This document shows, in pieces, positions 9,364 to 64,000 of a stretch of 64,000 nucleotides of DNA (the first letter of the stretch is position 1; every line of letters starts with the position of its first letter). The stretch spans positions 186,001 through 250,000 of the forward strand of contig NZ_JAKVIL010000006.1 of NCBI RefSeq assembly GCF_022601675.1. Reading direction: 5' to 3'. Both the position numbers and the translations under genes were made by a program. The notes beneath the pieces were generated by a model, which was given only the letters and a program-made list of their open reading frames with translations, was not told the origin of the DNA and did no database searches. The stretch is from Ancylobacter gelatini. Its GTDB lineage: Bacteria > Pseudomonadota > Alphaproteobacteria > Rhizobiales > Xanthobacteraceae.

Positions 9364-9407
9364 GGCGCCGGCGGGCCTGCCGGCTCGCCGCCCTCAGAAA
9401 CCCTGTG

Positions 9408-9442
9408 TCATCCCGGAGGGCCTCATGGCCGCTCCGGGATGA
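9408..9442. repeat. Inverted repeat in the phnD-phnE gap
   Basis: TCATCCCGGAG (9408-9418) and CTCCGGGATGA (9432-9442) form a perfect 11-bp stem with a 13-base loop. No T tract follows, so it is unlikely to be a simple terminator. A second GGGATGA-rich cluster follows (9501-9530). It resembles the REP-type palindromes elsewhere in the window and may stabilise or process the phnCD part of the mRNA. Confidence 0.7.
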
Positions 9443-9545
9443 TGTCATGTCCTTCACGACCCGACGGGAGCACGATCCCGGCTCCCCGGCGCCGCCGCGG
9501 CGGGATGACGATCCCCCGGATGACGATCCAAGGAACAACCCTCGC

Positions 9546-10373
9546 ATGTCCGTCTCCCACGCCGCCCGCCGCACCGCCGCCGATCTCGCCACGATGCCCG
9601 CACCGCCGGTCACGCCGCTCGTCACCCGGCTGACGCGCCTCGCGCTGGGCGCCATCGTCATCGCGGTGCTGGTCGCGGCCTGGTACGAGGCTGAGATGAA
9701 CCCGGCGCAGCTGGTGCGCGATGCGGGCAACATGGCGACGCTCGGCGCCGACTTCCTGCGCCCCGACTTCACCGACTGGGATGTCTATTTCGACGCGATG
9801 CTGGAGACGCTGGCGATCGCGATCTGGGGTACGGTGCTGGCGGTGATCGTCGGCATCCCCTTCGGCATCCTCTCCGCGGAAAACGTGGTGCCGCATTGGG
9901 TGGCGTTCCCGATCCGCCGGGTCATGGATGCCTGCCGCGCCATCAACGAGCTGGTGTTCGCGCTGATCTTTATTGCCGCCGTCGGCCTCGGCCCGTTCGC
10001 CGGCGTGCTGGCGCTGTTCATCCACACCACCGGCGTGGTCGCCAAGCTGTTCTCCGAGGCGGTGGAGGCGATCGACCCCGCGCCGGTCGAGGGCATTCGC
10101 GGCACGGGCGGCACCTGGCTGCAGGAAATCATCTACGGCGTGCTCCCCCAGGTAATGCCGCTGTGGATTTCCTACGCGCTGTACCGCTTCGAATCCAATG
10201 TCCGCTCGGCCACCGTGCTCGGCATCGTCGGCGGCGGCGGCATCGGCATGACCTTCAACGAGACCATGCGCGGCTTTCTCTATTCGCAGGCCGCCGCGAT
10301 CCTGATCATCGTGGTGCTTACGGTCTCGCTGCTGGACATGGTCAGCCAGAAAGTCCGCAAACGCTTCATCTGA
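9546..10373 (+). CDS. phnE: Phosphonate ABC transporter permease PhnE
   Basis: The inner-membrane permease of the PhnCDE importer, 275 residues, with about six membrane segments and the binding-protein-dependent transport domain. The EAA loop that contacts PhnC is visible as [20 protein letters not shown] (about 175-195). The end, [22 protein letters not shown], is typical of PhnE. ATG 9546 (MSVSHAARR) fits the family and has AGGA 11 bases upstream; the frame is open back to phnD, but that extension is Arg/Pro-rich and covers the intergenic palindromes. Some bacteria carry two phnE genes; only one is here. Unusually, 182 bases separate it from phnD. Confidence 0.93.
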
Positions 10374-10502
10374 GCCGCGCGGCGCATGCACGACATGCGG
10401 GGCAGGGATGCGCGCGCATCGGTAACGATTCAATCGTTGACGACATAGCTGACTCTGAAAGCCGCCCTTCATTCCGGGCGGCTGTTCAGGGAAACATTCA
10501 TC

Positions 10503-10739
10503 ATGTCTCATCACCATCGCCCCGTTGCGTCCCGTACCGTTATCGCGGTCGCTCTGATTGCCTCTTTCGGCCTCGGAGGGATGACGGCGGCCTCGGCCGG
10601 CGGCCGCAGCAAGGATGACCGCAAAGCGTTCTGGCAGACGTTGCACGAGTCCCGTCAGCCCTGGGGGCGGGTGTTCCACACCCAGAAGGCCGCGCCGGAA
10701 AAGGCGCCGGCCGCCAGCACGGCCAAGCCGAAGAGCTGA
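10503..10739 (+). CDS. Small secreted protein, unknown function
   Basis: A 78-residue protein with a His-rich start (MSHHHRPVASRT), a hydrophobic stretch (VIAVALIASFGLGGMTAASA) that looks like a signal peptide cleaved near residue 32, and a short basic mature part (KDDRKAFWQTLHESRQPWGRVFH) ending in Ala/Lys/Pro residues. GGGAAA lies upstream of the ATG. Not recognised as a known family. It stands alone between phnE and another small secreted ORF; the mature peptide of about 45 residues could sit at the membrane or in the periplasm. Confidence 0.6.
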   Translation: MSHHHRPVASRTVIAVALIASFGLGGMTAASAGGRSKDDRKAFWQTLHESRQPWGRVFHTQKAAPEKAPAASTAKPKS

Positions 10740-10884
10740 GGTCACAGAAGCTCGGTGTTTCAAAATTGCACGAACGCAATTATTTCGATGCGTTCTCGTA
10801 TCATGAATGGCGTCCGCGCATGATGTAATCTCCTCTCGTCACGGTCTGACCAGGCGGTCGACCTTGCGGGGATGGAGAGAGACC

Positions 10885-11097
10885 ATGCACAAGATCGTGC
10901 TCGCCAAACTTTTTCTCGCGCTCTCATCGATCGCGATCCTCGCGGCGGCCGGCGCTTATGCCGACCGGCGAAGCGAACCCAGCGCGCAGCCGGTCCATGT
11001 GGCCGGGGCGGCGTCCGGGCGTTGGCTGGTCGAGCCGACGACGAGCGATGCCGGCGGTGCCGCACTCATCGCCACGGCAGGCGAGACGCGCTCCTGA
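10885..11097 (+). CDS. Small membrane or secreted peptide, unknown function
   Basis: A 70-residue product: a basic start (MHKIVLAK), one hydrophobic segment (LFLALSSIAILAAAGAYA, a signal peptide or anchor), and a polar tail without cysteines. ATG 10885 has GGAGAGAG directly upstream and is preferred over the longer frame that opens at 10807. No family is recognised. With the gene at 10503 it forms a pair of small exported proteins just ahead of an ABC exporter on the same strand, but there is no evidence of joint function. Confidence 0.5.
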   Translation: MHKIVLAKLFLALSSIAILAAAGAYADRRSEPSAQPVHVAGAASGRWLVEPTTSDAGGAALIATAGETRS

Positions 11098-11221
11098 GGG
11101 ACGCTTTGCCAGTGGAAGCCGGCCGCGTCTTTTAAATATTCGGCCAAAGCTTTCCGATTATTAATTTGATCGTCATTCTCCCGCCCGCATCGTTTTCGAT
11201 GACTGATAGACGGCGTGTCGC

Positions 11222-13012
11222 GTGCGCGCCGTCTTTTCTTTGCGCATCCTTGCCGCCGGAGTGCTCCGCTTGCGTGGTTTTCTCTCTCTTCTCGCCGATT
11301 TCTGGCGTCTGTCCTCGCCCTATTTCCGTGGCGAGGATAAATGGCGCGGTGGCGCGCTGCTCGCGGCGGTGATCGGGCTGGAAGTCGCCTGGGTCTATGC
11401 CATCGTCCTCATCAACGAATGGAATAATGCGTTCTACAACGCGATCCAGGAGAAGGATTTCGCCGCCTTCACCCATCAGCTTTGGCTGTTCATGCTCTAT
11501 GCGGCGGGAGCGATCGTCGTGGCGGTCTATCAGCTCTACCTGCGGCAGTGGCTGGAGATACGCTGGCGCACATGGATGACGGAGCGCTATCTTTCCGGGT
11601 GGCTGGCGGACAAGACGCATTACCTTATGCGACTGAAGGGCGACACCGCCGACAACCCCGACCAGCGTATCGCCGAGGACGTGCAGGCCTATATCGCGCA
11701 GACGCTCAGCCTGTTCATGGGGCTGCTCAACGCGGTGATGACGCTGACCTCCTTCGCGGTGATCCTGTGGGGGCTCTCGGGTGATTTCAGCTTCAGCCTG
11801 TTCGGCGGGGAATGGCGGGTGCCGGGCTATCTGGTCTGGGCGGCCTTCGCCTATGCCGCGGTCGGCACCTGGCTCACCCATCTCATCGGCCGGGTGCTGG
11901 TCGGGCTGAACTATAACCAGCAGCGCTTCGAGGCGGATTACCGCGTCGATCTGGTGCGCGTGCGCGAGCATGGCGAACAGATCGCGCTGATGGATGGCGA
12001 GGCGACCGAGCGGGCGCGGCTGCTCTCCCGGTTCTCCCATGTGGTGCACAATTTCTGGGGCATCATGATTGCCCAGAAGCGGCTGACCTGGTTCACCGCC
12101 GGCTATGGCCAGATTTCCAATGTCTTCCCCTTCATCGTGGTAGCCCCGGCCTATTTCGCCGGAACGATCACGCTTGGCCAGCTCATGCAGACCTCCTCGG
12201 CCTTCGGGCAGGTGCAGGGTTCGTTCTCGTTCTTCATCACCGCCTATTCCTCGCTGGCGGAGTGGAAGGCGGTGGTGGACCGGCTGGTGGGCTTCGAGAA
12301 CTCGGTCGCGGTCACGCAGGCCGAGGCGCGTGCGATAGGCTTCCACCGGGAGGCGGCGGGCGATGGCGCGATTCTGGGGCTCGACAGCTTCGAGGTGCGC
12401 CTGCCCGACGGGCGGGTGCTGGTGACGGCCGATCGCATGCGCATCGGGCGCGGTGAGCGGGTGCTGCTGACCGGGCCGTCGGGCTCGGGCAAGAGCACGC
12501 TGCTGCGCGCCATGGCCGGCATCTGGCCATATGGTCATGGCGAACTCACGCTGGCGCCGGGCGCCCGCATCCTCACCCTGCCGCAGCGGCCTTATCTGCC
12601 GGTCGGGTCGTTGCGCGGGGCGCTGGCCTATCCCGATGCGACCGTGGACCATTCCGACGACGCCCTGCGCGAGGTGCTGCAGGCGGTGGGGCTTGACGCC
12701 TTTGCCGGGCGCCTCGATGAGCGCGGGCTGTGGTCGTCCATCCTGTCGGGTGGCGAACAGCAGCGCTTCGCGGTGGCACGCGCGCTGCTTATCAAGCCGG
12801 ATGTGCTGCTGCTGGACGAGGCGACGTCGGCGCTGGACGAGCCGGGCGAAGATGCGTTGTACCGGCTGATCGCCGAGCGCCTGCCGTCCACCGCGCTTCT
12901 CTCCATCGGCCACCGCTCGACCCTGCTGGATCTGCACCAGCGCCATATACGGCTGGAGCGCGCAGCGGACGGACCGGCACGGCTGATGGACATCGCCGGC
13001 GTCGCGGCGTGA
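11222..13012 (+). CDS. SbmA/BacA-YddA-like ABC transporter, membrane and ATPase domains fused
   Basis: A 596-residue half-transporter of the YddA/ABCD-like group, which combines an SbmA/BacA-like membrane domain (about residues 25-330) with an ABC ATPase. Family marks are LINEWNNAFYNAIQEKD, YLRQWLEIRWRTWMTERYL and DNPDQRIAEDVQ in the membrane part, then Walker A GPSGSGKST (about 418), signature LSGGEQQRF (about 509) and Walker B VLLLDEATSALD (about 530). It should act as a homodimer in the inner membrane. Relatives move vitamin B12, peptides or acyl-CoA-like substrates; this one cannot be assigned. The start is uncertain: GTG 11222 is used, and later starts near the FLSLLADFW segment are possible. 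Confidence 0.88.
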   Translation: MRAVFSLRILAAGVLRLRGFLSLLADFWRLSSPYFRGEDKWRGGALLAAVIGLEVAWVYAIVLINEWNNAFYNAIQEKDFAAFTHQLWLFMLYAAGAIVVAVYQLYLRQWLEIRWRTWMTERYLSGWLADKTHYLMRLKGDTADNPDQRIAEDVQAYIAQTLSLFMGLLNAVMTLTSFAVILWGLSGDFSFSLFGGEWRVPGYLVWAAFAYAAVGTWLTHLIGRVLVGLNYNQQRFEADYRVDLVRVREHGEQIALMDGEATERARLLSRFSHVVHNFWGIMIAQKRLTWFTAGYGQISNVFPFIVVAPAYFAGTITLGQLMQTSSAFGQVQGSFSFFITAYSSLAEWKAVVDRLVGFENSVAVTQAEARAIGFHREAAGDGAILGLDSFEVRLPDGRVLVTADRMRIGRGERVLLTGPSGSGKSTLLRAMAGIWPYGHGELTLAPGARILTLPQRPYLPVGSLRGALAYPDATVDHSDDALREVLQAVGLDAFAGRLDERGLWSSILSGGEQQRFAVARALLIKPDVLLLDEATSALDEPGEDALYRLIAERLPSTALLSIGHRSTLLDLHQRHIRLERAADGPARLMDIAGVAA

Positions 13013-51782: not shown

Positions 51783-51937
51783 TTTCGCTCTCCGCTGGGT
51801 CGTGAGAACCTTAACTTTTCGTGGTCTGCGCCCAGTACGAACCATCATGGTTAACGGGTTTATAATTACGTGTTTAGTTGGTTCAATGGGTTAGCGGTTC
51901 CATCCATGAGATTGTTGAGTAAATTTAACCACTTATC
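51783..51937. other. AT-rich junction between chromosome and prophage
   Basis: Base composition drops to AT-rich at about 51800-51940. CATGAGAT (51905-51912) and ATCTCATG (51935-51942) are perfect 8-base inverted repeats around 22 bases, at the end of the last phage gene: a terminator-like or attachment-related structure. No integrase or tRNA is seen at this end. Confidence 0.45.
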
Positions 51938-52153
51938 TCATGAATTTTCCCGGTTGGATTTATCCAGCCATAGCGCCTGAAAAGCGTCCATCAGATCCGC
52001 GAGCATCCGGCATCCCGTCGCCGCATCAAGCGCGATGACGATCGGCATTACTGGATCGCCAGCGATCGGCTCGAGCTGTACGACCAGTTCGACGCGATCG
52101 CGCACAGGCCGCCGGATGCGCGGCGGTATGCGCGGGTGAGGGCGAACGCTCAT
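51938..52153 (-). CDS. Small phage protein, unknown function
   Basis: A 71-residue basic then hydrophobic protein (MSVRPHPRIPPRIRRPVRDRVELVV... VIALDAATGCRMLADLMDAFQALWLDK). Its start overlaps the stop of the upstream membrane protein by 4 bases (ATGA at 52150-52153). It is the last gene of the leftward phage operon. No family is recognised; a spanin or regulator role cannot be judged. Confidence 0.55.
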   Translation of the reverse strand: MSVRPHPRIPPRIRRPVRDRVELVVQLEPIAGDPVMPIVIALDAATGCRMLADLMDAFQALWLDKSNRENS

Positions 52154-52497
52154 GCTGCCGGCGGCCGTAGGTTCGGAGGGGCACCATCGCGCCAGAGGCG
52201 CGCCCATTTGATCGCGGCCTCGCATAGGCTCATGCCCGTCAGCCCGAGGAGGAAGCCCACCATGCCCTCGAGCGAGGCCGTGGAGATATCCGGCGAGGCG
52301 AGCCAACGCGCGGCCAGATGTGTGCCGATCGGCGTGCCGTAACCCGCGACGGCGGTGCCGACGATGGCGGTCCCGATGTGACGCATGATCGATCCTCCGG
52401 GCCGCGTCATGGAGCGGACGAGGCCGCCGATGGCGCCAGCAAGCAGGTGAGCAGCTTTCAGCCCGAGCAATGCCGGCTCGGGCAGCATATCCGTCAT
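52150..52497 (-). CDS. Phage membrane protein, holin candidate
   Basis: A 115-residue protein with two or three hydrophobic segments (LLGLKAAHLLAGAIGGLV, IGTAIVGTAVAGYG, LEGMVGFLLGLTGMSLCEAAI) and short basic loops. It lies in the lysis cassette behind the endolysin, 7 bases from the preceding gene. Topology fits a holin; no named holin family is recognised. Confidence 0.6.
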   Translation of the reverse strand: MTDMLPEPALLGLKAAHLLAGAIGGLVRSMTRPGGSIMRHIGTAIVGTAVAGYGTPIGTHLAARWLASPDISTASLEGMVGFLLGLTGMSLCEAAIKWARLWRDGAPPNLRPPAA

Positions 52498-52504
52498 AAC
52501 GTCC

Positions 52505-52867
52505 TCACAGGCCCGCCCGGTGACGGGCGATCAGGGTCTCGATGTTCCGGTAGGCCCAGGGCACCACGATCATGCAAAGCCCCACGATCGCCTCGAGCTC
52601 GGACTGCGAGTACCAGCCGGCACCCACGCCAGCGCCGCCTAGGGCAACCAGGGCAATGCGCAGGTTCTGCGGCCACAATGCTTCGAGCGCCGCTGGCGCC
52701 GGCATCTGGCGCGCGATCGCCTCAGCAACCGGCTTCACGTCGGATGGCGACAGAGCCACGTCACTCCGCCGGGCCACGGTAGCCGTTGCGCGCTCGATGA
52801 TGGCACCGGCGCCGGGCACGGCGACATTGAGCGCGGTGCCGATAATGGCGGTGATGAGCTTCCTCAC
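52505..52867 (-). CDS. Phage membrane protein, holin candidate
   Basis: A 120-residue protein with an N-terminal hydrophobic segment (LITAIIGTALNVAVPGAGAII), a polar middle, and two C-terminal helices (LRIALVALGGAGVGAGW and LEAIVGLCMIVVPWAYRNIETLIARHRAG). The start is GTG 52867, overlapping the endolysin stop (GTGA). Position directly behind the endolysin and topology make it the best holin candidate of the three small proteins. Confidence 0.65.
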   Translation of the reverse strand: MRKLITAIIGTALNVAVPGAGAIIERATATVARRSDVALSPSDVKPVAEAIARQMPAPAALEALWPQNLRIALVALGGAGVGAGWYSQSELEAIVGLCMIVVPWAYRNIETLIARHRAGL

Positions 52868-53556
52868 GGCAGCAGCTCCTTAAGGTCGATGCCAAAGGCG
52901 GCCGCGAGCGCGGCCAGGGCGAGGACCACGGCCGCCAGCAGCGCCTTGATCGTGGAGGAGGTGCCGGTTGCCGCGGACGCCGGCGAGGCGGCATCGATGA
53001 CCGGGACGGCATTGCCAGCCGCCTTGACCGTCGCCAGGACCTTCTCGACATCGCTCGCGGGGACGAGCGCCTTGTTCAACCCGTCGCCGGCGTAATAGGA
53101 CTGGCCGCGTTGCAGCTGGCGGGTGCTGCCAGCGGTCGCGGCTAGCACGGGGAAGCTCGCCCATTCCTTCGCCAGATTGAGGCCGAAGGCGGTCACCGTA
53201 AGCTGACCGGCCATGAACTTTTCATAGCCGCGGCGCTTCAGCAGGTGATAGCCGAGCCGGTCCTGAAGACCCGCGTTCAGCACCTGGCCATCCCGCAAGC
53301 CGAGCTCGGCCTTAAGGTCGATGAGGGTTTGGCGCATGAACTGATACCCGCCGGCGGCGCTGGAGCCGTGGGCCTTGGTCCAGCTCGGTCCCGCTGTGAT
53401 CACCTCGGCCAGCGTCATGGTGGTCAGCGGCTTGGCCAGCTTGCGTTCGTTGTGGCCGAACATGGTGTCGTAAGCCGATGCATCGGCGCGGCCGGTCTCC
53501 GTGCGCCGGATGAAATCGAGAAGCACCGCGGCACCGGCGGGCACAGTCTTGTCCAT
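52864..53556 (-). CDS. Phage endolysin, lambda-R-like, with C-terminal membrane segment
   Basis: A 230-residue murein-degrading enzyme. Residues 8-140 match the lambda R/GH104 transglycosylase pattern: LLDFIRRTETGRADASAYDTMFG with a catalytic Glu in RTETG, SSAAGGYQFMRQTLIDLKAELGL and LQDRLGYHLLKRRGYEKFMAG. The last 55 residues hold an Ala-rich linker and a membrane helix (IKALLAAVVLALAALAAAFGI) near residue 207-227, so the enzyme should be membrane-tethered at its C-terminus. ATG 53556 (GGAG upstream) is preferred over ATG 53586, which falls in the repeated 33-bp element. Confidence 0.82.
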   Translation of the reverse strand: MDKTVPAGAAVLLDFIRRTETGRADASAYDTMFGHNERKLAKPLTTMTLAEVITAGPSWTKAHGSSAAGGYQFMRQTLIDLKAELGLRDGQVLNAGLQDRLGYHLLKRRGYEKFMAGQLTVTAFGLNLAKEWASFPVLAATAGSTRQLQRGQSYYAGDGLNKALVPASDVEKVLATVKAAGNAVPVIDAASPASAATGTSSTIKALLAAVVLALAALAAAFGIDLKELLP

Positions 53557-53581
53557 GTCAGGGCTCCGATTGGGAGCCTTG

Positions 53582-53614
53582 AGCATGGCGGCCGGCGAAG
53601 AGGGTCAACCGTTC
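53582..53614 (-). promoter_or_regulatory. Repeated 33-bp phage element, copy A (promoter candidate)
   Basis: On the minus strand GAACGGTTGACC is followed by 16 bases including GCCGGC, then ATGCT. The identical layout is at 56550-56582. It lies just after the stop of the lectin-like gene, ahead of the endolysin. TTGACC is a good -35 match; ATGCT could be part of a -10. Confidence 0.6.
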
Positions 53615-53619
53615 GTTGA

Positions 53620-54396
53620 CTACCAGGGCAGTTGCGTTCGGCCATGAATGGCCGCGTGCCAAGTCTCTATCTCGTCAACACGGAGCGCGCGCCCCCAGCC
53701 TCTGAACCTCTGGATCTCGGTGGCTGACAGAGATCCTGCGGCACCGATGAGCAGGCTATTGAGAATTCCGGTGCTGGAAAGGCCGGTGTGTCCCGTCGTC
53801 GTCACGGGCGGGCGCAGATCGAGCTTGCGCACCAGCGTGCCGCCGGCGGCCGGGTTCTCAGTCGGGGGAGGCGTGTAAGTGAACGTCACCATATGCCACG
53901 CCGTCTCGACGCCGGTGAGGGTGCCGTTACCGAACGACACGCCATCGGTGCCAGCGCCGGCGAAGAGAGCGCCGGAACCTGAGGCGCGGATGCTGACATA
54001 GCGACCGGACGCCAGCCCATTGAGAAGCCGCGTCCCGGTGGAGTTCACAAAGGCGGCGGCTTCATCGAAGCGGAACAGCATCGAGATCGAGAATTCCGGG
54101 TAGTCGACGGCTCCTACCGCCCTCATCGTGTCATCCGCCGCGGATTTACCGAACCGAAGGGCCGGAAGGGCGCCGAGCGCATTCGCCTTCAATATTGGCG
54201 CAGCACCGCCAGAGGCGGTCGCCAATGTACGCAGGGGCGCCGCCTCGCCACGAAGAGAAAGCCAACTCGGCACCGACGCGCCATCGGCAGCGACGATGGT
54301 CGAGGCGTCGAAGTCAAAGAGCATCGAGCGCGCGAGGTCAGCAATGGGAACGCCACCGTCGGTGAGCGCAACCGTCGACGGCATAATCGTGGTCAT
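53620..54396 (-). CDS. Phage protein with lectin-like (LamG/ConA) fold
   Basis: A 258-residue protein whose centre looks like a concanavalin-A/LamG jelly roll: LRFGKSAADDTMRAVG, FSISMLFRFDEAAAFVNS, TAWHMVTFTYTPP and the closing ATEIQRFRGWGRALRVDEIETW, a typical LamG end. It is translationally coupled (ATGA) to the tail fibre, so it may be a second receptor-binding component, a fibre partner or a capsid decoration. Confidence 0.7.
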   Translation of the reverse strand: MTTIMPSTVALTDGGVPIADLARSMLFDFDASTIVAADGASVPSWLSLRGEAAPLRTLATASGGAAPILKANALGALPALRFGKSAADDTMRAVGAVDYPEFSISMLFRFDEAAAFVNSTGTRLLNGLASGRYVSIRASGSGALFAGAGTDGVSFGNGTLTGVETAWHMVTFTYTPPPTENPAAGGTLVRKLDLRPPVTTTGHTGLSSTGILNSLLIGAAGSLSATEIQRFRGWGRALRVDEIETWHAAIHGRTQLPW

Positions 54397-56543
54397 GGTG
54401 CGTCCTCTCCATACCAGCCCAGGCTGAGGATTTTGGGGCGGATCAGGTTGTTGCAGATGGCGGCACGCGCAACGCTCGCGAGGTGCAGATCATCCTGGCA
54501 GAGCTGCCGCGCGATCATGCCGGCGCCAATATCGGCGACGTCGTCGGCGGTCTTGGTGAGGCTGGCGTCAGTCCAGATCTGCTCGCCCATTACATAGGCA
54601 TAGACATCAACGAACCGATCTCCGAAGAAATCCTGGCGCCACGCCCGGTCCTGCAACATCAACTCGCGGCCGGCGCCACCCGGAACATCCGACTTGCGCG
54701 GAGCGTGACCGATCCCGAGGATGCGAGGAAAAATGGGAGCGTGCCATTCCGCCAACTCGATGCAGCCGCGCACGCATTCGTCGAGTGGGCTCAACACGTT
54801 GATGTTGTTCTTGCCGGAATTGTCGAGCAGCACGGTTGCCCGCTGCTCGGTGTAGGCAAGCGGAATGAAATCGTGGTAGCCGACCGCCGCGACTGCGGCT
54901 GCCCCGGCCGTGGTTAGCGCGATCTGATAAGGGACATCTGTCCCGGTGATTGTGACAGGAACATCGCCCGAGGGGAGGCGAAGGTAGCCGACCCAAGGGT
55001 TACGCATCACGCCATCGGCAAAATTTCGATCGAACGCAATGGGGGTCGTGCCACTCGCCGGGATCGAGCCAGAGGGGACAATGAGACGGTAGGGCGACGT
55101 GCCGGCTGCACCGGTAATTTGCGTGTTCCGCCAACCGCCAGTTGCCATATTGGTCAGGGTCGCGCCAAATTCCGCCGCGATGGGCGTCAGACTGGACACG
55201 TAGCCGCCTGCCGTGCTGGACCCCCAGATAGTCCATCGCGACAAGTCGGCGCGCATCGGCGCGCGATCGCCACGACGGGTCCGCCATGTCTCGTCCGGCC
55301 ACGTCTTAAGCGACGCGATCGCGTCGTCGAGGCCGAGCGAGGTTTTCAGGTCTGCAAGCGCCTTCGGATGGAAACGACCATCCGGGCCCCATGTCGCATG
55401 CCAGGCGCCAAAACGACCGCGACGCGTGCCCGGCACCAGATCGGCAATGCTGACCCAGATATCCTCGCCGCCTTCATATTCCACGTCGACCGGTAGCAGG
55501 CCGGCCTCGCCCATGCTCTTGGCGATGAGCGCCGCCGCCCAGAGCGGCGGGGCACCATCCTTGATGCGCGAGGTCAGAAACGTCCCGAGGCCGTTCTTGT
55601 CGGTGAGAGAGTGAGAATATTCCGGGTTTTCTGCCTCATAGCGAACGGCATTCTCCATGGCCGCCTGGCGCACCGCGAGGTTCGGTAGTGTCGCCGCATA
55701 ATCCAGCACCAGAACGCCGCCACGCTTCACGTAGAAGCCGTCATTGGCGCCGTCATGGGTGACATAGATGCCCTTGTTCTCAGGAATGGCGCCGATCGCG
55801 GCATTCGCTAGCGCAAGGGTAATGAATGATCCTACGCTTTCCGCCGCCGAAACAGCGCCGGCACGAGCGCTCTCGGCCTCCGCACGGGCCTGCTGTGCCG
55901 CAACTCGCTGGTTGGTGGCGAGCGGCACTTGGGCCACCGCAATGTCTCGGGCCTCGATCGCGGCCACCGATGCCGCCGTCGCCACCGTCCCGTCGATCAT
56001 GTCGATGCGTTGGCCGAGGCCAGTGTCGCGATTGTTGCTGGCAATGGACTCGGAGGCGATAATATTGAACAGGGCGTTGTCGCGTTCCACGCTGGTCCCG
56101 ACTTCATCGGCGATCTTGCTATAGATCGCCTCATCGGCCGCGCCGCGACGCACCCTCTCATCGTCGATATCCCGGCGCATCTCCATGTCACGAATCGCGC
56201 CGCGGTCGAATTCCTGATCAAGCACCTGGGGCTGATATCGGCCGCTCGCTGTGACGTTTGAGGTCCGCGACGCGTCAGCCAAGCCATACACCGAGATATG
56301 GGCTCCGGCTGGCTGCGCTGCAAACAGCCGCGCATAACCGCCACCGGCGCTACCGGCACCGAAAACGGTATAATCGACGTTCAGAGTGAGCAGCGTATCC
56401 GGCTGGCCGGCCGCCGGCGCGCGATGCACCCTGATGTCCCGATCGTACTGGAACGCGAACGGCACCGCAAAATCGGTCTGGCCGGCCGACGCGATGTAGA
56501 CACGGGAACGGGTGTCGTTATTGATCGGGATATCTGTGCTCAT
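54393..56543 (-). CDS. Tail fibre/spike with SGNH-hydrolase-like C-terminal domain
   Basis: A 716-residue virion protein. Residues 1-130 match the T7-type tail-fibre N-terminal domain that attaches to the tail (NDTRSRVYIASAGQTDFAVPFAFQYDRDIRVHRA... NVDYTVFGAG). About 130-260 is helical and coiled-coil-like (AEAESARAGAVSAAESV). From about residue 435 the chain has SGNH esterase features: IWGSSTAGGY with nucleophile Ser (about 442), Gly in MATGGWRNTQI, Asn in SGKNNIN (about 580), and CQDDLHLAS with Asp-His near 685-688. It may deacetylate a surface polysaccharide of the host. Confidence 0.78.
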   Translation of the reverse strand: MSTDIPINNDTRSRVYIASAGQTDFAVPFAFQYDRDIRVHRAPAAGQPDTLLTLNVDYTVFGAGSAGGGYARLFAAQPAGAHISVYGLADASRTSNVTASGRYQPQVLDQEFDRGAIRDMEMRRDIDDERVRRGAADEAIYSKIADEVGTSVERDNALFNIIASESIASNNRDTGLGQRIDMIDGTVATAASVAAIEARDIAVAQVPLATNQRVAAQQARAEAESARAGAVSAAESVGSFITLALANAAIGAIPENKGIYVTHDGANDGFYVKRGGVLVLDYAATLPNLAVRQAAMENAVRYEAENPEYSHSLTDKNGLGTFLTSRIKDGAPPLWAAALIAKSMGEAGLLPVDVEYEGGEDIWVSIADLVPGTRRGRFGAWHATWGPDGRFHPKALADLKTSLGLDDAIASLKTWPDETWRTRRGDRAPMRADLSRWTIWGSSTAGGYVSSLTPIAAEFGATLTNMATGGWRNTQITGAAGTSPYRLIVPSGSIPASGTTPIAFDRNFADGVMRNPWVGYLRLPSGDVPVTITGTDVPYQIALTTAGAAAVAAVGYHDFIPLAYTEQRATVLLDNSGKNNINVLSPLDECVRGCIELAEWHAPIFPRILGIGHAPRKSDVPGGAGRELMLQDRAWRQDFFGDRFVDVYAYVMGEQIWTDASLTKTADDVADIGAGMIARQLCQDDLHLASVARAAICNNLIRPKILSLGWYGEDAP

Positions 56544-56549
56544 GACACC

Positions 56550-56582
56550 AGCATGCCGCCGGCATCATAAGGTCAACCGTTC
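56550..56582 (-). promoter_or_regulatory. Repeated 33-bp phage element, copy B (promoter candidate)
   Basis: Same GAACGGTTGACC, 16-base spacer with GCCGGC, ATGCT as copy A. It overlaps the stop of the giant gene (56581-56583) and ends 7 bases before the tail-fibre ATG (56543), leaving no room for a normal ribosome binding site. If it is a promoter the tail-fibre mRNA would be almost leaderless. Confidence 0.6.
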
Positions 56583-59500
56583 AGTTCAACGCCGGCACGG
56601 TCGGCTTCGCGCGGCGCGCGGGCCTGTCGCCATCGAGCTCGACGCCGGCAGCTTTCGCCTCAGCCTCGAGATCCTTGAACATGGCGTCGGACCCCTCATC
56701 CTTCAGTCGCTGGCGAAGTTCCGGCCACATCCGTTCTACGAGCTCGCGCGGCCAGACTTTGGCCTTGTTGTACCGCGAAGCCAGAACCGCCTTCAGCTCC
56801 GGCGATACCGCCTCGAGCTCGCGGATATAACCATCGGTCGGCATCGGCCGCACCGGCGCCCAGCCTTCCGTACCGACCGCAATCAACGCATTGCGCGCTT
56901 CCACCATGGCGAGATCGGCGAGGATATCGTCAGCGGCACCACGCACGCGGGACGGAATCTCGATCATCTCGTCGTCAGCGTTCCGCACCGCATTCGAGGC
57001 GATCGCCCGTCGCACGAAGCCGATCGCCTGGACCGCGCCACGGGCGCGGATCAACGGGTGTAGTCGCTGCGCGCCAATCGGCATCATGGAAACAGTGACA
57101 TAGGCCCGCTGGTTTGCATCGAGCGTCGCCAGATAATCGGCCGCGCCAACATCGTCGCCGGCGTCAGAAAGGGCGCGGTAGCTCTTGGCCTTGCCCTCGA
57201 GCTCGCCGGTGCGGCCCGACACCATGTCCCAGAACTGGCGCGAAGAGGTGGAACCGCGCGAGGCCATTTTCACAAAACGCCGGGTGATGAAAACCTCATC
57301 CCAGCCCTGCGACGGCTTATCGCCGGTCGCCATATCGGAAAGCGCCATCACCGAGCGGCCAACCGTGCCGAACTGCGACGTGATAAATTGGTCGACCATG
57401 ACCGGCGCCACGCCGATCGCGGAGCCGATAAGCTTGCCAAGCTCCGAAGTCGCAGCGGTGTATTGCAACCAGGTCTCCATACCCTCGACGGCCTCCGGCA
57501 CGATCGGCCGGCCGGTGAACATGTCGGTGTTGGTTTTCTGTTCATAATAGAATTTGAGGCCCGGCAAGCCCTCGAACAGGTTGGGCGGCGCGATCACGTT
57601 GAACAGCCCATCGAGATAGCGCGAGGTTGCCAGCGGATCGCTTTCGGCGAAGGCATCCCAGATCGCCTCCGCCGCGTTCAGCACCACGGCCATTTCGAAA
57701 GGTTTCGGGATGGCCGTCCAGTACTGGCCGGTCTTCACCATCCAATGCGTGGCGCGCGTGGTGTTGCTGACTTCGCGGTAATCCTCGTTCCGGCTCATGA
57801 GTGCATGGAGGCCGAGGCCGGCGACGGTGAGCGTGGCGAGCCGCGCCCACGCCTTCACCGCAGTGCCGCGCGCGGCCGCCTCGCCGGCGGTGACTGCATC
57901 GCCGAAGAATGGCGCGATCATCTCGCGCGTCACTTTGTCGAAGCCCTGCAGCGACGCATTGAGGAACGGCACGAGCCGGCTCATGGCCGCCATTTGCGAG
58001 CCGCGGCGGCCGAAATCCATATGATCGCGGGCGCGCCATGCTGCTTCCATCATCGCTTCCCAGTCCGCCAGGCCGCGCTTGCTCGCCTCGTCATAGAAGC
58101 TCTTGTAGAGCCCGAGGCGCATGCCGGTTTCCGAAATCTCAGCGACCTCGGCGACGCCCTTCACCCACTTCACCGGATCCGAATGCTTGAAGCGCTGCGC
58201 CAGCCAACCCTTTCTCTTCAGCGCAGAAAGATCACGCTCCACACTGGCATCGCGAAGGGCCGCAACTTCCTGCCCGCCCATGATGCCGCCAGCGCCGTTG
58301 TAGCGCCGCGCGGCCTCGCGCCCCATCAGCTCATCCGCCATACCCCGGAATGTCCCGGTCAGCCGCTTGAACGGCGCGCCGTAAAAGATCGAGGCCATAG
58401 CCTGGTCGCGGATCAGATTCGCCAGGATGAAGGCGGGATCGGAGGTGATGCCGGCGCGCAGCGTCGAGCTCGAGACCGACGCCAGATCCAGCCAAAGGTT
58501 CTTTTCCGGGGCGCTCATGCTGGTAAGCGCCCGATAGATATCGAGCCCGAAATCCCGATCGGCCAGACGCAAGGCGCGCAGCTCGCCGCCGTCGCGGAAG
58601 AACACGATGGTTTCGCCCTTGGTGTTGATCACCGCCGGCCGGAATATCCGTGCCTTCTCATCGCCCAGCAGGCTTTCCACCATGTCGCGGATGGCGATGA
58701 CATCCGGTCCCGCCATGCCGCCCTGCCGGCCGGCCGCCTCGATCGCTTCGAGCGGGTCGACCAGCAGCATGCGCATTTCCTTGGCAGGGATCCGCTCGGC
58801 AATCGCCGCACCACCATGGCCGGCCCGCAGCGCCAGCCGATCGAGCGACTTCATCACGTCGTTATGAGCGATCGCCGCGGCCGTCTCATAGGCATCGGTC
58901 ATCAGGCTTTCGACCGGGTTGATCACGTCGCGCGTAGAGCCTTGGAAGCGCTTGACGATGCTCGAGCGCGCATCGCCGCCGCCGCGCCCGCCGGCGCCGG
59001 CGGGGTCGCCGTCGTAATCGAAGGCGCGCAGGCCCGGCACATAGTCGCGGATCATCAGACCCTGCGCATGCTGCTCGGGCGTGATCAGCCCGGAATGCAG
59101 CTTCTTGTCCCACAACGCCAGCGCCCAGGCATGCACCTTCTCGGCCGCGGTCGCGAACTGCGGATTTGCCGCCTCGGCTTCCTGCACATGCAACGCATGG
59201 TCGCCGTGGCTCAGCTTGTCCGGCGGGTTCGGGATCTCACCCGCGCGGAACCGATCCCATTCCCCGAGCGCACGGCGTGACCAGAGATAGGCGCCGAACT
59301 CTACAGCCTTGCCATCATCCCACCGGCCGGCCGCGTTCGGCGCGCCCATCGCCTCGATGATCGCATCGCGCAGCGCCGGCGAAGCCGGGTTCGCGCCGCG
59401 ATACGGCACCACGCCATGCATGATGTCCATATGCCCCGCGCCATGGGCGTTCCTCGATAGGCGGGCGAGCTTGTAGGGATCATCGATCACCTTCAGGTCG

Positions 59501-61716
59501 ACCGGCTTGCCGGCGGCCTCCGATGCCATCCGCGCCAGCGAGCGCACTGAACGCTGAAGCGGGTGCAGGTTGTCGAAGAAGGCGGTGTAGGCGCGCCCCA
59601 CCTCATCCGCGATCGTCGTGCCGAGACCATAGCGCCGCATGCTGTCAGTACGCTTGCGCCACCAGCCCGGCCGGCGGGAGCTGACAATGGTGGACTGCAC
59701 GGCCCGACCGCTCGGCAGAGCGATCCACTCGCCATAGGCCGTGCGGATCTCCTCGAGGAGCGGCGGCAGCTCCGGCGCATTCCGCTTCAGGAAGGCATTG
59801 AATGCCGCCGAGAACCGCGGCGCATCCTTTGCGGCCTTCGCCGGATTGGTGAAGGACAGGCGAAACCATTCGGCAAAGCCCTCCTCGAGGCGATGCGCCG
59901 GCTTCGCTCCGACATAGGCCATCGGCTCAAGCTCGCCGGCATGGCGCTTCATGATCGGCAGGAGATCGGCTGGACCATTACCCTTCAGGCCACCGAAGCG
60001 GGCCTGCACGGCGTGGCCGACTTCATGGGCGAAGGTCTGAAAATCGTCCTGTCGGCGCACACGGAGCGCACCATTGCTGAAATCATAGGTGCCTTCGGCG
60101 CCCCGCAACTTCATGCGCCCCTGACGAACAGCCGCCACCTCGATGGCGTCGCGCAGTTTGCGCGAGATGTCCCGCAGGCGCGTGAAGGTTGGAGTGTCAT
60201 CCGGCGCCGCCGCGATGCCACCGGCAGGCCGCTGCGCCGAGACCCGCACCGCACCGCGCGACGCGCGGAGATCCTCGCGGACATCGCCTGCGCCTTCACG
60301 GCGCGCCAGCACATCACCCCCCTCGTCCGCCAGCCGATCCGGTGCTACATTGGCGGCCGTCGGCGAGGGAGAGGACGTGTCCCCCTGGAGACTGTCGGAG
60401 CGCTCCGTACTACCTTCGACACGCCGGCGACGTCCCTGCGGCTGGGAAGCCGGATCATAGGCAGTCAGCAGCCAGCTTTTCGTCTCGCCATCCAGATCAA
60501 GCCGCACGGCCGCCTTCGTTCGCGGGCTGGTATAACGGATGCGATTTGGCGAGACGCTTTCGATCTCCATCTCCGCGATCCGCGCAGGTAGGTCACCCAA
60601 CACCTCGGGGTGCTTTCCGGCGATATGGGCGAGCCCCATATCCTCATTGCCATAAAACACATCCACCACCCGCCCGTCGGGAAAGGTCAGCGCGCCCCGC
60701 GCATCTCCCGCCTTCAGCTCGCTCAACCGGGCGACCGCCTCGGGCCAGCGCCCCTCATAGCCGGTGAGCACCGGGCCAAGCTCGTCATCGATACTGACAA
60801 CATCATCAAGCCGGCCTGCCAACGCCGCCTCACGGGCCACCGCCGTTTCAAGGTCCGGCGCTTCCCCGATCCAGCGCGCGGCCTCGCGCGCCACGGGCGC
60901 TCCTTCCGGCGACAGCCGAGCGGCCAGGGCGTCCAGATCATCCGGAACCGGCGGCACATCGCGTGAGGCCAGCACGCCTTCCGGTGCCTGCCCTGTGACA
61001 CGCGCCTCCGCCTCAGATTGGAGGCGCTCGCCGATGGCGGCGGCTGGCGACGCCGGCTGCCTGGCCTGAGACGCCTCAGGCCGAACCATGATCTGAAGCG
61101 GTGCGTCAGACACCGGCGCCGGAGCCGCCGGCACGGGATCCGCCGTCACCTCTGCGCCGCCGGCGGCCGGGCGCCGGGCGATCACACCCGCGACGCCGCC
61201 GAACGCGCCGCCGGCGGCCGCGCCGAGCGCCGTGGAAATGGCGAGTTGAGAGGCGCTGAAGGCGTCGCGGCGATCGCTGGCGATCTCCAGGCCCTGAATG
61301 CCGCTATCGATCACCGCATTGGTGACCGCAGCATCGGTTGCGCCGGCGAACACCCGCGCGGCGACGCTGGTGCCTGATCGCCCCATCGCCTGCAAGGCGC
61401 GCGCACCAAGCCCGATCGGGACGTAGTTCTCGAGGCCCGTCAGCGTGCCGGCGAATTGGCCGCCGAGTGCGGCAATTCCTTCGTCCCAGCTCTGCCACCC
61501 CGGCAGGCTTTCATAATAGGCATCGAACGCTTGGCGGCCGGTCTCAGCCTCGGAGTGCAGCGCATCGCGTGTCGCTCCGAGCAAGGTCCCATAGCGGACC
61601 GCCGCCTCGAAATTGGCAGCGAACCGCTCCGAGAAGGACGGCGCCGGCCCGCCGGTGAGCGTGTCGGCGCCGGTCTGCGCCGCGTCGAAAACGGTGGTGT
61701 CGAGATCATCGCTCAC
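56581..61716 (-). CDS. Giant phage polyvalent protein (RNase-like domain, zinc-peptidase motif, LPD38-like region)
   Basis: A 1711-residue protein, probably carried in the virion and injected. The first 190 residues are helical (ENYVPIGLGARALQAM... AGGAFGGVAGV). Around 325-425 is a Barnase/EndoU/ColE5-RelE-like nuclease core (VVDVFYGNEDMGLAHIAGKHPEVLGDL and SPRTKAAVRLDL). Around 565 is HEVGH (metallopeptidase) with EEGFAEWF near 613 as a possible third ligand. The C-terminal half includes an LPD38-like region (FGRRGSQMAAMSRLVPFLNASLQGFDKV near 1245). Starts at GTG 61716, overlapping the upstream stop. Domain names rest on recalled patterns. Confidence 0.82.
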   Translation of the reverse strand: MSDDLDTTVFDAAQTGADTLTGGPAPSFSERFAANFEAAVRYGTLLGATRDALHSEAETGRQAFDAYYESLPGWQSWDEGIAALGGQFAGTLTGLENYVPIGLGARALQAMGRSGTSVAARVFAGATDAAVTNAVIDSGIQGLEIASDRRDAFSASQLAISTALGAAAGGAFGGVAGVIARRPAAGGAEVTADPVPAAPAPVSDAPLQIMVRPEASQARQPASPAAAIGERLQSEAEARVTGQAPEGVLASRDVPPVPDDLDALAARLSPEGAPVAREAARWIGEAPDLETAVAREAALAGRLDDVVSIDDELGPVLTGYEGRWPEAVARLSELKAGDARGALTFPDGRVVDVFYGNEDMGLAHIAGKHPEVLGDLPARIAEMEIESVSPNRIRYTSPRTKAAVRLDLDGETKSWLLTAYDPASQPQGRRRRVEGSTERSDSLQGDTSSPSPTAANVAPDRLADEGGDVLARREGAGDVREDLRASRGAVRVSAQRPAGGIAAAPDDTPTFTRLRDISRKLRDAIEVAAVRQGRMKLRGAEGTYDFSNGALRVRRQDDFQTFAHEVGHAVQARFGGLKGNGPADLLPIMKRHAGELEPMAYVGAKPAHRLEEGFAEWFRLSFTNPAKAAKDAPRFSAAFNAFLKRNAPELPPLLEEIRTAYGEWIALPSGRAVQSTIVSSRRPGWWRKRTDSMRRYGLGTTIADEVGRAYTAFFDNLHPLQRSVRSLARMASEAAGKPVDLKVIDDPYKLARLSRNAHGAGHMDIMHGVVPYRGANPASPALRDAIIEAMGAPNAAGRWDDGKAVEFGAYLWSRRALGEWDRFRAGEIPNPPDKLSHGDHALHVQEAEAANPQFATAAEKVHAWALALWDKKLHSGLITPEQHAQGLMIRDYVPGLRAFDYDGDPAGAGGRGGGDARSSIVKRFQGSTRDVINPVESLMTDAYETAAAIAHNDVMKSLDRLALRAGHGGAAIAERIPAKEMRMLLVDPLEAIEAAGRQGGMAGPDVIAIRDMVESLLGDEKARIFRPAVINTKGETIVFFRDGGELRALRLADRDFGLDIYRALTSMSAPEKNLWLDLASVSSSTLRAGITSDPAFILANLIRDQAMASIFYGAPFKRLTGTFRGMADELMGREAARRYNGAGGIMGGQEVAALRDASVERDLSALKRKGWLAQRFKHSDPVKWVKGVAEVAEISETGMRLGLYKSFYDEASKRGLADWEAMMEAAWRARDHMDFGRRGSQMAAMSRLVPFLNASLQGFDKVTREMIAPFFGDAVTAGEAAARGTAVKAWARLATLTVAGLGLHALMSRNEDYREVSNTTRATHWMVKTGQYWTAIPKPFEMAVVLNAAEAIWDAFAESDPLATSRYLDGLFNVIAPPNLFEGLPGLKFYYEQKTNTDMFTGRPIVPEAVEGMETWLQYTAATSELGKLIGSAIGVAPVMVDQFITSQFGTVGRSVMALSDMATGDKPSQGWDEVFITRRFVKMASRGSTSSRQFWDMVSGRTGELEGKAKSYRALSDAGDDVGAADYLATLDANQRAYVTVSMMPIGAQRLHPLIRARGAVQAIGFVRRAIASNAVRNADDEMIEIPSRVRGAADDILADLAMVEARNALIAVGTEGWAPVRPMPTDGYIRELEAVSPELKAVLASRYNKAKVWPRELVERMWPELRQRLKDEGSDAMFKDLEAEAKAAGVELDGDRPARRAKPTVPALN

Positions 61717-64000
61717 GGTGCGGGGCTCCAGCTTTCACCGTCATCGGGAGCCGGCGCCGCCGACCGCTGCATGTCGAGATAGAACTGCGCCCAGCCCGCG
61801 CCGAACCGGGCGTCAAAGGTCGGGCCCAATGCCGGGTTGTCGATCAACTGCCGGATGGACTGATAGCTCGGCACTTCCTTGAAGGCTGCCGGCCTGCCCG
61901 GCGCCTGCGCCGTGGCGGCCGCGTCAGCCCGGGCGGCATCATCCACGGCCGGATTGACCGTGACCGGCTGGCCCACGCCGGCACGGCGCAGCACCGCCGC
62001 CGCAGTCGCAGACGCCTCGCGCTCGGAACCGGCCGACCGCAGCACTTGAGCAAGCACTTCGTCGGCCTGGTCGCCATAGCGCTCGACAACCTGCCGGCCT
62101 ACATCGAGGGCGGCACGGTCAGGGTTCGGTGCGCGGGTGATGTCGAGCGCGATGGCCTGCGCTTCTCGCTTCGTGAGTGGCTGGCGCGCGAGGTCTGGAA
62201 TGCCCAGCTGCGACTGGGCATCCATGCGCAGCGCCGCGAGATCGCGATATGAGCTGGGATTGTTCGGGTTGAGCGCATCCTTAGCCGCGCGAACCGCGTC
62301 GAACGCCTCATCGACGGCTGCCGCCGGATCCGTGCGCCGGCGATCGAGCAGGCTCTTGGCCCTCTTGCGGGCGTCATCGCGCACCTTCGCGGCGCCGGCG
62401 AACTCCACATCCCCCGGGCGCGGTTCGAGCTCGGCAAGCCGCGCTTCGATTTCACCCTCCGGCAACACGCCGAAATCCGCCGTTGCCTGATAAAGCGTTC
62501 GTGCCTGCTGGCGATCATCCGCCCATTTCACCGCGGCGGGCGCGCCGAGGATCTGACGCACGTCGTCGAACTCAAGCTCGCGACCACCGACGAGCACCGG
62601 CGCGCCGGTTTCACGCAGGCTGGCGACATCCGCCCGGATCGCTGAAGTAAGCTCGAGGCGCCCCTGCGCCGAACTGCGCCGTTCGATGTTGCGCTCGTTG
62701 CGCGCCTTGCCAATCAGCTCATTCTGGAGCCCGTAGACCGTGCTGTAGTCCAACGCCGCCAGTGGGCCTTTCTTCTCCCCCCAGGCGGCCGTCAGGCCAG
62801 AGGCGAACTGCTCCTTCGCTGCAAGATCCGGCAATTGCTCGAAGGCGCCACGCACCCGCGCGCGTGCCGCCACGTCCATCAATTCGCGCCGCCGCCGCAT
62901 CGCCTCCGCTGGCGCGATGCTGCCGGATGCTGCCTGCCCATCGATAATCGCGCTATTGCGCCGAATTTCGCGCTCGAGCTCCGCATCGCCTTCGGGAGAG
63001 CTGGCAAGCACGAAGGCGCGGCGCTCTAGATCCCCCTTCGCCGCCTCATGCTGTTCATCGGCCGCCGCCGACATGTCGGCGCGCTGGCGGGCAATCGCGC
63101 GTTTTTCGATCTGCTGGCTATAGGTCAGGGCGCGACTGGTGAACTGGCGTTCCGCCGCCTCACGGATCTCGGGATCGGCGAGGTTGGGATCCTTGAACAG
63201 CGCCTCGCGAGCGTCGTTCAATGCCGCGGAGAAGCCGTTGGGATCATCCTGGTGCTGATCGAACGCACTGGTCAGAGCTGCGTCGACGCCGGCGGCGAAC
63301 CGCCAGGAGAAAGCTCGCTCCGCCGCCGCATCGTAAGCCTCGCCGGCAATGGTGCCGTCGCGGCGCAGCGCCATGCGCGGCGCCGACGCAGATGCCGGCA
63401 TCGCTCTCGCCGCCGGCTCGCCGAACATGGTGCGCAGCGCCGGCTGCGCCCAGGGCGGCGCCTGGTCGACGGAATGGCCGGCATAGGCATTGCCTGCCGA
63501 GCCCCATACCGCCGGGTTTTCACGCGCATCGACATGAAGGGAATTGCCGCTTTTGTAGATGCCCACGCCCCGCGCGCCGCTGGCGACAGCGGCCGAAAGC
63601 AGCGCTGCCTTCTGATCGTCGCTATAGCCGGAGATATCGATATCCAGCGCCTCGCCATGCAGGTGCTGCGAGCCACGCGCCCCGCCGACGGCGGCGTTCC
63701 GCGCGGGATTGCGATACCCGGATGTCACGCGCAGTTCCGGCACCACGCCGGCGCCCGTGATCCCGTCGAGCAGTGCACGCGCGCCACCGGAAAGCCCATC
63801 GAGATCCGCCGAGGTGCCGGCGACGCGCGACGGCGGGGCCGGCGACGCCACCTCAGGCACATGGGCGGCGCCGGCCGCAGCACCAGCCGCAAGGCCGGCC
63901 GCCTCGCCTTCGCGAGCGGCGGCCCGGTCTGCCATGCGGCCAAGCTGCTCGCCCAGGCCGTTGAATACCGACGCGACCGCAGCACCCGCCACACCGGATA
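61713..64000 (-). CDS. Phage ejection-type protein with M15 peptidase domain (N-terminus cut by window)
   Basis: At least 759 residues. The frame is open to the right edge, so the true start lies outside or at GTG 63992. An Ala-rich helix opens the visible part. Residues 85-160 form an M15-type (VanY/D-Ala-D-Ala carboxypeptidase) domain: VTSGYRNPARNAAVGG, SQHLHGEALDIDI with zinc His and Asp, and SLHVDARENP with the last His. The remaining 600 residues are helical, with repeated Arg/Glu coiled-coil-like stretches. Injected virion proteins of podoviruses often carry such murein-degrading domains to help DNA cross the wall. Confidence 0.8.
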   Translation of the reverse strand, partial: SGVAGAAVASVFNGLGEQLGRMADRAAAREGEAAGLAAGAAAGAAHVPEVASPAPPSRVAGTSADLDGLSGGARALLDGITGAGVVPELRVTSGYRNPARNAAVGGARGSQHLHGEALDIDISGYSDDQKAALLSAAVASGARGVGIYKSGNSLHVDARENPAVWGSAGNAYAGHSVDQAPPWAQPALRTMFGEPAARAMPASASAPRMALRRDGTIAGEAYDAAAERAFSWRFAAGVDAALTSAFDQHQDDPNGFSAALNDAREALFKDPNLADPEIREAAERQFTSRALTYSQQIEKRAIARQRADMSAAADEQHEAAKGDLERRAFVLASSPEGDAELEREIRRNSAIIDGQAASGSIAPAEAMRRRRELMDVAARARVRGAFEQLPDLAAKEQFASGLTAAWGEKKGPLAALDYSTVYGLQNELIGKARNERNIERRSSAQGRLELTSAIRADVASLRETGAPVLVGGRELEFDDVRQILGAPAAVKWADDRQQARTLYQATADFGVLPEGEIEARLAELEPRPGDVEFAGAAKVRDDARKRAKSLLDRRRTDPAAAVDEAFDAVRAAKDALNPNNPSSYRDLAALRMDAQSQLGIPDLARQPLTKREAQAIALDITRAPNPDRAALDVGRQVVERYGDQADEVLAQVLRSAGSEREASATAAAVLRRAGVGQPVTVNPAVDDAARADAAATAQAPGRPAAFKEVPSYQSIRQLIDNPALGPTFDARFGAGWAQFYLDMQRSAAPAPDDGESWSPAP

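Follow-up and report, generated by a model that had tools for sequence, protein, structure and literature searches.

The window analysed here, a stretch of 64,000 nucleotides from Ancylobacter gelatini (positions 186001-250000 of contig NZ_JAKVIL010000006.1, numbered contig 17 or C17, in a genome of 4.3 Mb), contains a gene for a 1711-residue protein that is probably a virion ejection protein of the functional class of T7 gp16 and the N4 virion RNA polymerase (vRNAP), carrying a PBECR1-type ribonuclease (RNase) as swappable cargo into the cytoplasm. A first-pass annotation, made from the sequence, had placed a polyvalent phage protein of this length at positions 56581-61716. The 1711-codon open frame was confirmed: it begins with GTG, is present in one copy in the genome and lies on the minus strand (a point absent from that annotation), as do all other genes and domains of the window given below; the plus strand of the same interval is interrupted by stops. 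The frame combines domains of disparate activity in a single chain (a BECR-type fold, a zincin fold and LPD38) and is encoded beside the virion genes of a mobile element, as is typical of polyvalent proteins. The observation of the first-pass annotation was confirmed and its interpretation partly supported; it had overlooked that the gene belongs to an ejection-protein triad, and that the exchangeable part of the chain is the nuclease and not the peptidase.

The gene lies in a podovirus-type prophage of ~37 kb, in which the gene order is head protein, two tail proteins, a 187-residue internal virion protein, a 792-residue protein with an M15 peptidase domain, the 1711-residue protein and a tail fibre. 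This series of a small, a middle and a giant protein before the tail fibre (187, 792 and 1711 residues) corresponds to gp14, gp15 and gp16 of T7 (196, 747 and 1318 residues), where the tail-fibre gene gp17 comes next (PMC8954989), and to gp52, gp51 and gp50 of N4 (150, 644 and 3500 residues; PMC12633501). A similar order was found in bbp13-12-11-10-9 of phage BPP-1, which code for a tail protein, an internal virion protein, an endolysin, Bbp10 and a tail fibre. Upstream DNA was long enough for this comparison at 55 loci; at 29 of them the closest upstream frame had 600-1000 residues and the one beyond it 140-240 residues, a count that stands without a chance level, from frames chosen by a simple script and with two look-alike pairs of loci (L129/L149 and L131/L160). 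BLAST relatives of the 792-residue protein were among the nearest frames at 30 of 55 loci, and those of the 187-residue protein among the second frames at 19 of 53. The 187-residue protein matched the internal virion protein family phrog_418 (E 9.9e-7) and nothing in the phage records; the 792-residue protein matched seven of these records, through its M15 part only. The closest direct evidence for packaging comes by analogy, from gp69 of phage JC1, a 4515-residue LPD38 protein that was found with 51 unique peptides in CsCl-purified virions (PMC9144972, Table 6). Delivery together with phage DNA, as the first-pass annotation had proposed, agrees with the gene order and with this mass spectrometry of another LPD38 protein; it is from these that we infer injection of the window protein.

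A constant chassis with an exchanged slot

The zincin and the LPD38 half form a constant C-terminal chassis, and the segment before the zincin is exchanged. Scanning viral contigs with a profile of the zincin and LPD38 core yielded 144 relatives, with 79 loci returned; the core rows numbered 92 including the window, and 86 after rows with identical last 800 residues had been removed. The core was C-terminal, and the part preceding it measured from ~20 to more than 3,000 residues. Members of the close group share a conserved stretch of ~190 residues at the N-terminus and differ from there to the zincin. The sister prophage of A. oerskovii encodes a protein with 69% identity over residues 4-235 and 80% over residues 456-1709 (82% over the core), and unlike the window protein in between. 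The conserved residues 1-190 (61147-61716), shared by relatives with differing middles, include an Ala/Gly-rich hydrophobic stretch; the top hydropathy windows fell at residues 158-181, with a mean of 1.5 at best, and this segment probably contacts a membrane.

A tree was built from 23 cores including the window, out of 29 close rows. Left out were L106 (5' cut), L113 (21 residues before the core) and the far relatives L024, L025, L026 and L179; L016 (3' cut, lower score) was not among the 29. The window was the supported sister (100/100) of A. oerskovii, whose slot filling differs. The minimum number of gains and losses on the tree was 3 for PBECR (6 rows), 4 for 'GGLR' (5 rows), 3 for 'coil' (3 rows) and 4 for 'none' (8 rows without recognised cargo), 'GGLR' and 'coil' being our own names for motifs found by eye. 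Values as low were reached in 4 of 500 shuffles for PBECR and in 7 for 'none', which are clustered on the tree, and in 153 and 500 of 500 for 'GGLR' and 'coil', which are not. Slot exchange has therefore been repeated but not free. Since the PBECR label came from a profile of the window and 69 viral loci, the match of the window itself is circular; the five other rows with this label matched at E 3.2e-46 to 4.9e-39 and come from contigs outside the profile set.

Pfam families found in 22 more distant N-termini were ART-PolyVal (6), ddrB-ParB (3), InPase (2) and ROS_MUCR (2), with single cases of PBECR3, RadC, RelA_SpoT, SLT and others. The PBECR3 domain (E 4.7e-21) stands in the N-terminal part of a distant core relative at L174:2029-8979, in place of PBECR1. 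Two assignments made by eye, 'ParB-like' (L116, also one tree row) and 'RelA/SpoT-like' (L016), had no Pfam support at E <= 1 and were withdrawn. In the A. oerskovii prophage the same slot (L014:8946-9683) is occupied by a domain with a GGLR/GGIR...GEL motif, which was also seen by eye in L109, L114, L118 and L123, that is, in 5 of the 23 tree rows; its copies in L014 and L123 matched no Pfam family above cut-off, and the L014 copy matched one unannotated phage record. In L113 (core match 9001-12615) the core frame begins shortly ahead of the zincin, with the end of the nearest long frame (863 residues) ~1.2 kb upstream, so that the chain may be split or frameshifted. At L003:14632-15254, directly behind a core gene without nuclease, there are two small antisense genes that by eye resemble a RelE/XRE toxin-antitoxin pair.

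Residues 691-1711 (56584-59646) make up a core of ~1020 residues, which was modelled as almost all-helical. The model of residues 659-1711 is one long unit of this kind, with a mean predicted local distance difference test score (pLDDT) of 82 and a predicted template modelling score (pTM) of 0.76. LPD38 (PF18857) matched with E 6.6e-38 and 131.1 bits, against a Pfam cut-off of 27, which bears out the LPD38 assignment of the first-pass annotation but not its extent: as the match covers residues 1311-1476 (57289-57786), LPD38 is a domain of ~165 residues within the longer helical half and not the whole of it. In the BFVD database 81 models matched the core at E <= 0.001; among the 50 matches shown, 19 carried a telling name, and 15 of these were named for large polyvalent protein associated domains. 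The 1711-residue protein had no match in NCBIfam at E <= 0.01, and its best PHROG was phrog_9854 (residues 1035-1435), which has no assigned function.

The nuclease and zincin domains

The slot of the window protein contains a predicted nuclease domain related to PBECR1 (residues 309-429; 60430-60792). When the 1711-residue protein was compared by tblastn with 50,697 phage records, 64 matched and none spanned 80% of it; among the 60 matches listed, the majority fell in the core and the last nine were confined to approximately residues 312-441. Residues 313-441, or most of them, matched proteins or frames of three other phages (37-42% identity, with E from 3e-14 to 7e-9). These were Burkholderia phage BcepMigl (gp16), Bordetella phages such as BPP-1 (Bbp10) and Pseudomonas phage Itty13, where the matching frame is opposite in strand to the annotated genes. 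The segment was present at 78 loci in a scan of viral contigs. All of these but L103 and L104, 76 in number, entered an alignment, from which L102 was removed on account of a stop; collapsing duplicates left 69 sequences, 70 with the window. Pfam PBECR1 was matched by all four members of the nuclease family alignment (best E 3.9e-10; the window member reached no better than 0.079). Among 24 N-termini examined from the core family, five matched it at E <= 0.01 (best 1.8e-12), that of the window protein not being one of them. By sequence, the window nuclease is best described as a divergent relative of PBECR1 and not as an above-threshold member.

Of the 70 distinct aligned sequences, 64 have His at position 369 and 6 have Arg, 69 have Thr at position 418 and one has Ser, and Trp415 is invariant. 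In BECR folds a His stands in the helix that precedes the sheet and a Thr or Ser in the last strand; the alignment assigns these places to His369 and Thr418. In the model, His369 is the sole unassigned residue between two helices (62-69 and 71-82, model numbering) and Thr418 stands in the fourth following strand (112-121), the last one; strands and one helix come before the BECR core as an extension. His369 and Thr418 are likely to be the catalytic pair of a predicted metal-independent endoRNase, and the targets of such enzymes may be host or phage mRNA rather than tRNA or rRNA (PMC5512222).

AlphaFold predicted residues 300-700 as two domains with pLDDT mostly above 90 (mean pLDDT 80, pTM 0.56); its alignment had 101 rows of ~142 prepared, and that of the other model 53 of 67. 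The separate confident folds of nuclease and zincin, at residues ~309-429 and ~513-680, closely fit the limits drawn in the first-pass annotation (300-430 and 500-680). Its call of a RelE/Barnase-like nuclease was supported, as a BECR-type assignment, by the phage matches, the PBECR1 matches of relatives and the confident fold; the profile search it had suggested found no Pfam family above cut-off in the nuclease segment of the window sequence, nor in the peptidase segment. The Foldseek list below threshold, which gives no ranges, included lethal factor, other zincins, 7m5f_C (E 0.017, probability 0.96) and RelE toxins (probability 0.2-0.3). We assign the 7m5f_C and RelE matches to the nuclease part. 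A BECR fold is reported for the CdiA toxin domain of 7M5F (PMC8616854), and the length of chain C leads us to infer that it is this domain. Directly behind the nuclease, at residues 430-455 (60352-60429), there is a tail of the form TDT...DTA or DTSS that recurs behind PBECR1 domains at many loci; it may have a regulatory role or belong to the PBECR1 domain itself.

A disordered linker (residues 432-503; 60208-60423; pLDDT below 50) leads to the zincin-like metallopeptidase domain (residues 513-690; 59647-60180), which was recognised by alignment, model, and fold and profile matches. The HEVGH motif and downstream Glu noted in the first-pass annotation are present as HEVGH at residues 564-568 (60013-60027) and LEEGFAE at 610-616 (59869-59889), the latter in the second helix of the zinc site, and both sequence and model show the HExxH helix followed by a Glu in a second helix. 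The H, E and H of the first motif and the EGFAE of the second were invariant in 13 of 13 aligned sequences, which reach down to 20% identity. Residues 511-649 re-aligned to lethal-factor-type zincins, with Z 9.5 to 4dv8 (134 residues, root mean square deviation 3.8), and to PPEP-1 with Z 8.1; the profile of the 13 sequences also matched PPEP-1/Zmp1 by sequence (E 1.1e-4). MPTase domains of this kind had been linked to lethal factor by Iyer et al. (PMC5512222), and residues 700-1000 of Bbp10 were a seed of the zincin family CLCA_X in 2013 (PMC3650047). A script found HExxH at the expected site in 72 of 85 core relatives; a plausible site was present in 10 of the 13 others, and no HExxH in the remaining three (L148, L166 and L177). 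Of 63 PBECR1 proteins in general, 20 had an HExxH in the 300 residues downstream; further on it occurred 12 times in 72,747 residues, or 0.049 per 300 residues.

Proposed function and alternative explanations

Polyvalent proteins with MPTase, PBECR and LPD domains were described in 2017 by Iyer et al., together with both peptidase roles, chain processing and cleavage of host factors (PMC5512222); the system is therefore not undescribed, as the first-pass annotation had supposed. The window protein resembles those proteins in joining unlike activities in one chain, in its zincin MPTase and in being encoded among virion genes; a PBECR1-MPTase fusion is named in that article, such proteins are predicted there to enter with DNA, and LPD38 is named once in its text. 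Unlike the proteins in the parts of the article consulted, the present LPD38 chain stands in a triad of gp14-15-16 type and has a fixed slot exchanged between sister phages. This placement, and the evidence for such a slot, are what is new here.

Like N4 gp50, the protein is the third of an ejection triad, with an N-terminal part, an enzymatic cargo, an HExxH domain and a mostly helical C-terminal part (~110 kDa in gp50), and it is in the zincin part that its profile best matches N4; the N4 cargo is a polymerase instead (PMC12633501). With T7 gp16, which is placed at the inner membrane and in the cytoplasm, it shares the position of third and largest gene of the triad, adjoining the tail-fibre gene, and its mostly helical nature. 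In the parts of the T7 article consulted, neither a zincin nor an RNase is described for gp16, which bears the murein hydrolase (PMC8954989); here the M15 domain is on the gp15-sized protein, so that the wall hydrolase is on the second and not the third protein of the triad. BPP-1 Bbp10 also has a PBECR1 segment followed by HExxH and the same position among virion genes, but no significant BLAST match over the LPD38 core. BcepMigl gp16 has a PBECR1-like segment and a core match at residues 1183-1296 (E 2e-5), and JC1 gp69 shares LPD38; unlike the window protein, these two DarB-like proteins of Burkholderia phages have ~4,500-4,660 residues, and JC1 gp69 is annotated with additional helicase, methylase and transglycosylase-like parts (PMC9144972).

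As an ejection protein, the 1711-residue chain would be made late, packed in the head of the ~37-kb podovirus and released with the first DNA, its N-terminal part crossing or meeting the inner membrane. The helical core and the cargo would regain their fold once in the cytoplasm, following models for T7 gp16 and a proposal for N4 gp50, and within the first minutes of infection the RNase would cut RNA of the host or of rival phages. The zincin would most likely trim or free the cargo at the linker (residues 432-503) rather than attack host proteins, since the zincin is constant, the cargo varies and a disordered linker lies between them. In N4, polymerase activity is lowered by the C-terminal part of the chain (PMC12633501), and the helical part could likewise keep the RNase quiet in the head. 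If so, this would link two literatures, that on multidomain 'polyvalent' phage proteins and that on the ejection proteins that take podovirus DNA across the envelope; in the literature searched, which left most subscription journals outside, 'polyvalent protein' and 'ejection protein' were not found together. In that literature LPD38 occurs in eight articles, two of which by their titles deal with phages or phage proteins, and PBECR1 in one. An ejection role of this kind would explain the route of cargo enzymes into the cytoplasm, give LPD38 a role as ejection chassis, and mark the slot as a source of early-infection effectors that a comparison of sister prophages can reveal.

Several results weigh against this explanation. 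The triad sizes were not seen at 26 of the 55 loci, and the 8 of 23 tree rows without recognised cargo indicate that cargo is dispensable. The window nuclease alone scored 13.9 bits against the PBECR1 (PF18809) cut-off of 27.6 (E 0.079, profile positions 10-100 of 104), and Foldseek on the Protein Data Bank (PDB) found no match at E <= 0.001 for the model of residues 300-700. N4 vRNAP has this zincin motif too and is packaged without being cut (PMC5512222); processing can therefore not be taken for granted, and any cut would seem to follow entry. The core model likewise had no PDB match at E <= 0.001; its best re-aligned match, the PhiM1 ejectosome chain 8vb2_A, ranked first among 957 re-aligned chains with a Z of 5.2, which is within noise for helical proteins. 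The N4 vRNAP, although present in the PDB by sequence, is missing from that list, which says nothing, since chains of more than 3,000 residues were not re-aligned.

Alignments A3 and A5, a 67-row alignment and a far-relative subset were also compared by hhalign with 16 N4-type and 5 T7-type sequences, which did not show the helical core to be homologous to T7 gp16 or to the helical part of N4 vRNAP. Against the N4-type sequences P was 0.041, 0.061, 0.012 and 0.033 (0.42-0.55 with reversed profiles); the match at P 0.012 is uninformative on the helical part because it is the zincin part (G-x-Y...HExxH...EF...TN). Without the zincin the score was 26.5 (P 0.091, 39 columns), a value that 3 of 60 block-shuffled profiles attained and none of the 60 fully shuffled ones (highest 25.9). 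The five T7-type gp16 sequences gave P 0.14-0.66, and reversed profiles 0.32-0.41. A motif 'E...R...KG...EA...DF', aligned by eye with N4, gave P 0.045 in a region-limited hhalign; it was not counted because the region had been chosen after looking.

A wider proposal, which we put forward tentatively, is that the zincin and LPD38 core is one widespread ejection chassis that resembles the C-terminal part of N4 vRNAP in structure and has a cargo bay at a fixed place, refilled in the manner of polymorphic-toxin tips: an RNase here, the GGLR-type domain in A. oerskovii, an ADP-ribosyltransferase, ParB-type nuclease or PBECR3 elsewhere and, in N4, a polymerase. Within the head, the cargo may then be held inactive by the helical part.

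It seems unlikely that the protein is a structural ejection protein only, with a BECR-like domain that is inactive or purely binding and a zincin that is a fossil fold holding the chain together. Such a chain would suit the relatives without recognised cargo and the uncut packaging of N4 vRNAP despite its HExxH domain (PMC5512222), and the phrase 'protease activity' is absent from the N4 structure preprint (PMC12633501); nevertheless, the conservation of His369, Thr418 and the zincin residues would be unexpected without catalysis. We consider it rather improbable that the zincin is an injected effector cleaving a host defence protein, with the nuclease secondary. Its closest folds and its profile match are indeed to secreted effector zincins (lethal factor and PPEP-1), and this role is listed as a possibility by Iyer et al. 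(PMC5512222), but a common fold is no proof of function, and the zincin belongs to the constant chassis, unlike the exchanged cargo, whereas arms-race effectors are usually the variable part. That the nuclease serves the lysogen as an abortive or superinfection-exclusion toxin, and not the incoming particle, is very improbable. In its favour are the location of the gene in a prophage and the frequent use of BECR folds by toxin systems (PMC5512222); against it, the gene is located in the late virion block, and its 4-base overlap with the upstream gene and the 37 bases to the tail-fibre gene leave no room for an adjacent immunity gene on the same strand.

Prophage ends and neighbouring genes

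Gene context beyond the window was taken from 60 kb of stretches. The prophage ends are marked by a 15-bp repeat, taken as the attachment site, with its left copy at positions 51847-51861 and the second copy 36,959 bp away at C17:274806. The flanks are adjacent in five genomes of the same genus (G002, G012, G015, G019 and G020), with 266-283 bases between the flank matches, against ~250-290 expected; in G002 the left-hand match stops at C1:4310620, with base 676 of the 962-base query, and the right-hand one begins at 4310886. Two of the 101 genomes searched, that of the window included, carry the 1711-residue protein.

Upstream of the 792-residue gene, the 187-residue gene, the two tail genes and the major head gene comes the gene for the large terminase subunit, and beyond it there are primase-type genes, repressors and an integrase. 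The 792-residue gene itself (61713-64000, continuing to 64091, 91 bases past the window end) has its M15 domain near the N-terminus (Peptidase_M15_3, E 5.6e-14). Downstream of the 1711-residue gene are the 716-residue tail-fibre gene (54393-56543; PHROG tail fibre and tail families, E 1.8e-21 and 2.8e-10), an endolysin-type gene (52864-53586; phrog_90, E 1.6e-32) and a holin-type gene (52150-52497), which matched the holin family phrog_2359 (E 1.7e-7) and, as its best match, phrog_13918, a family without assigned function.

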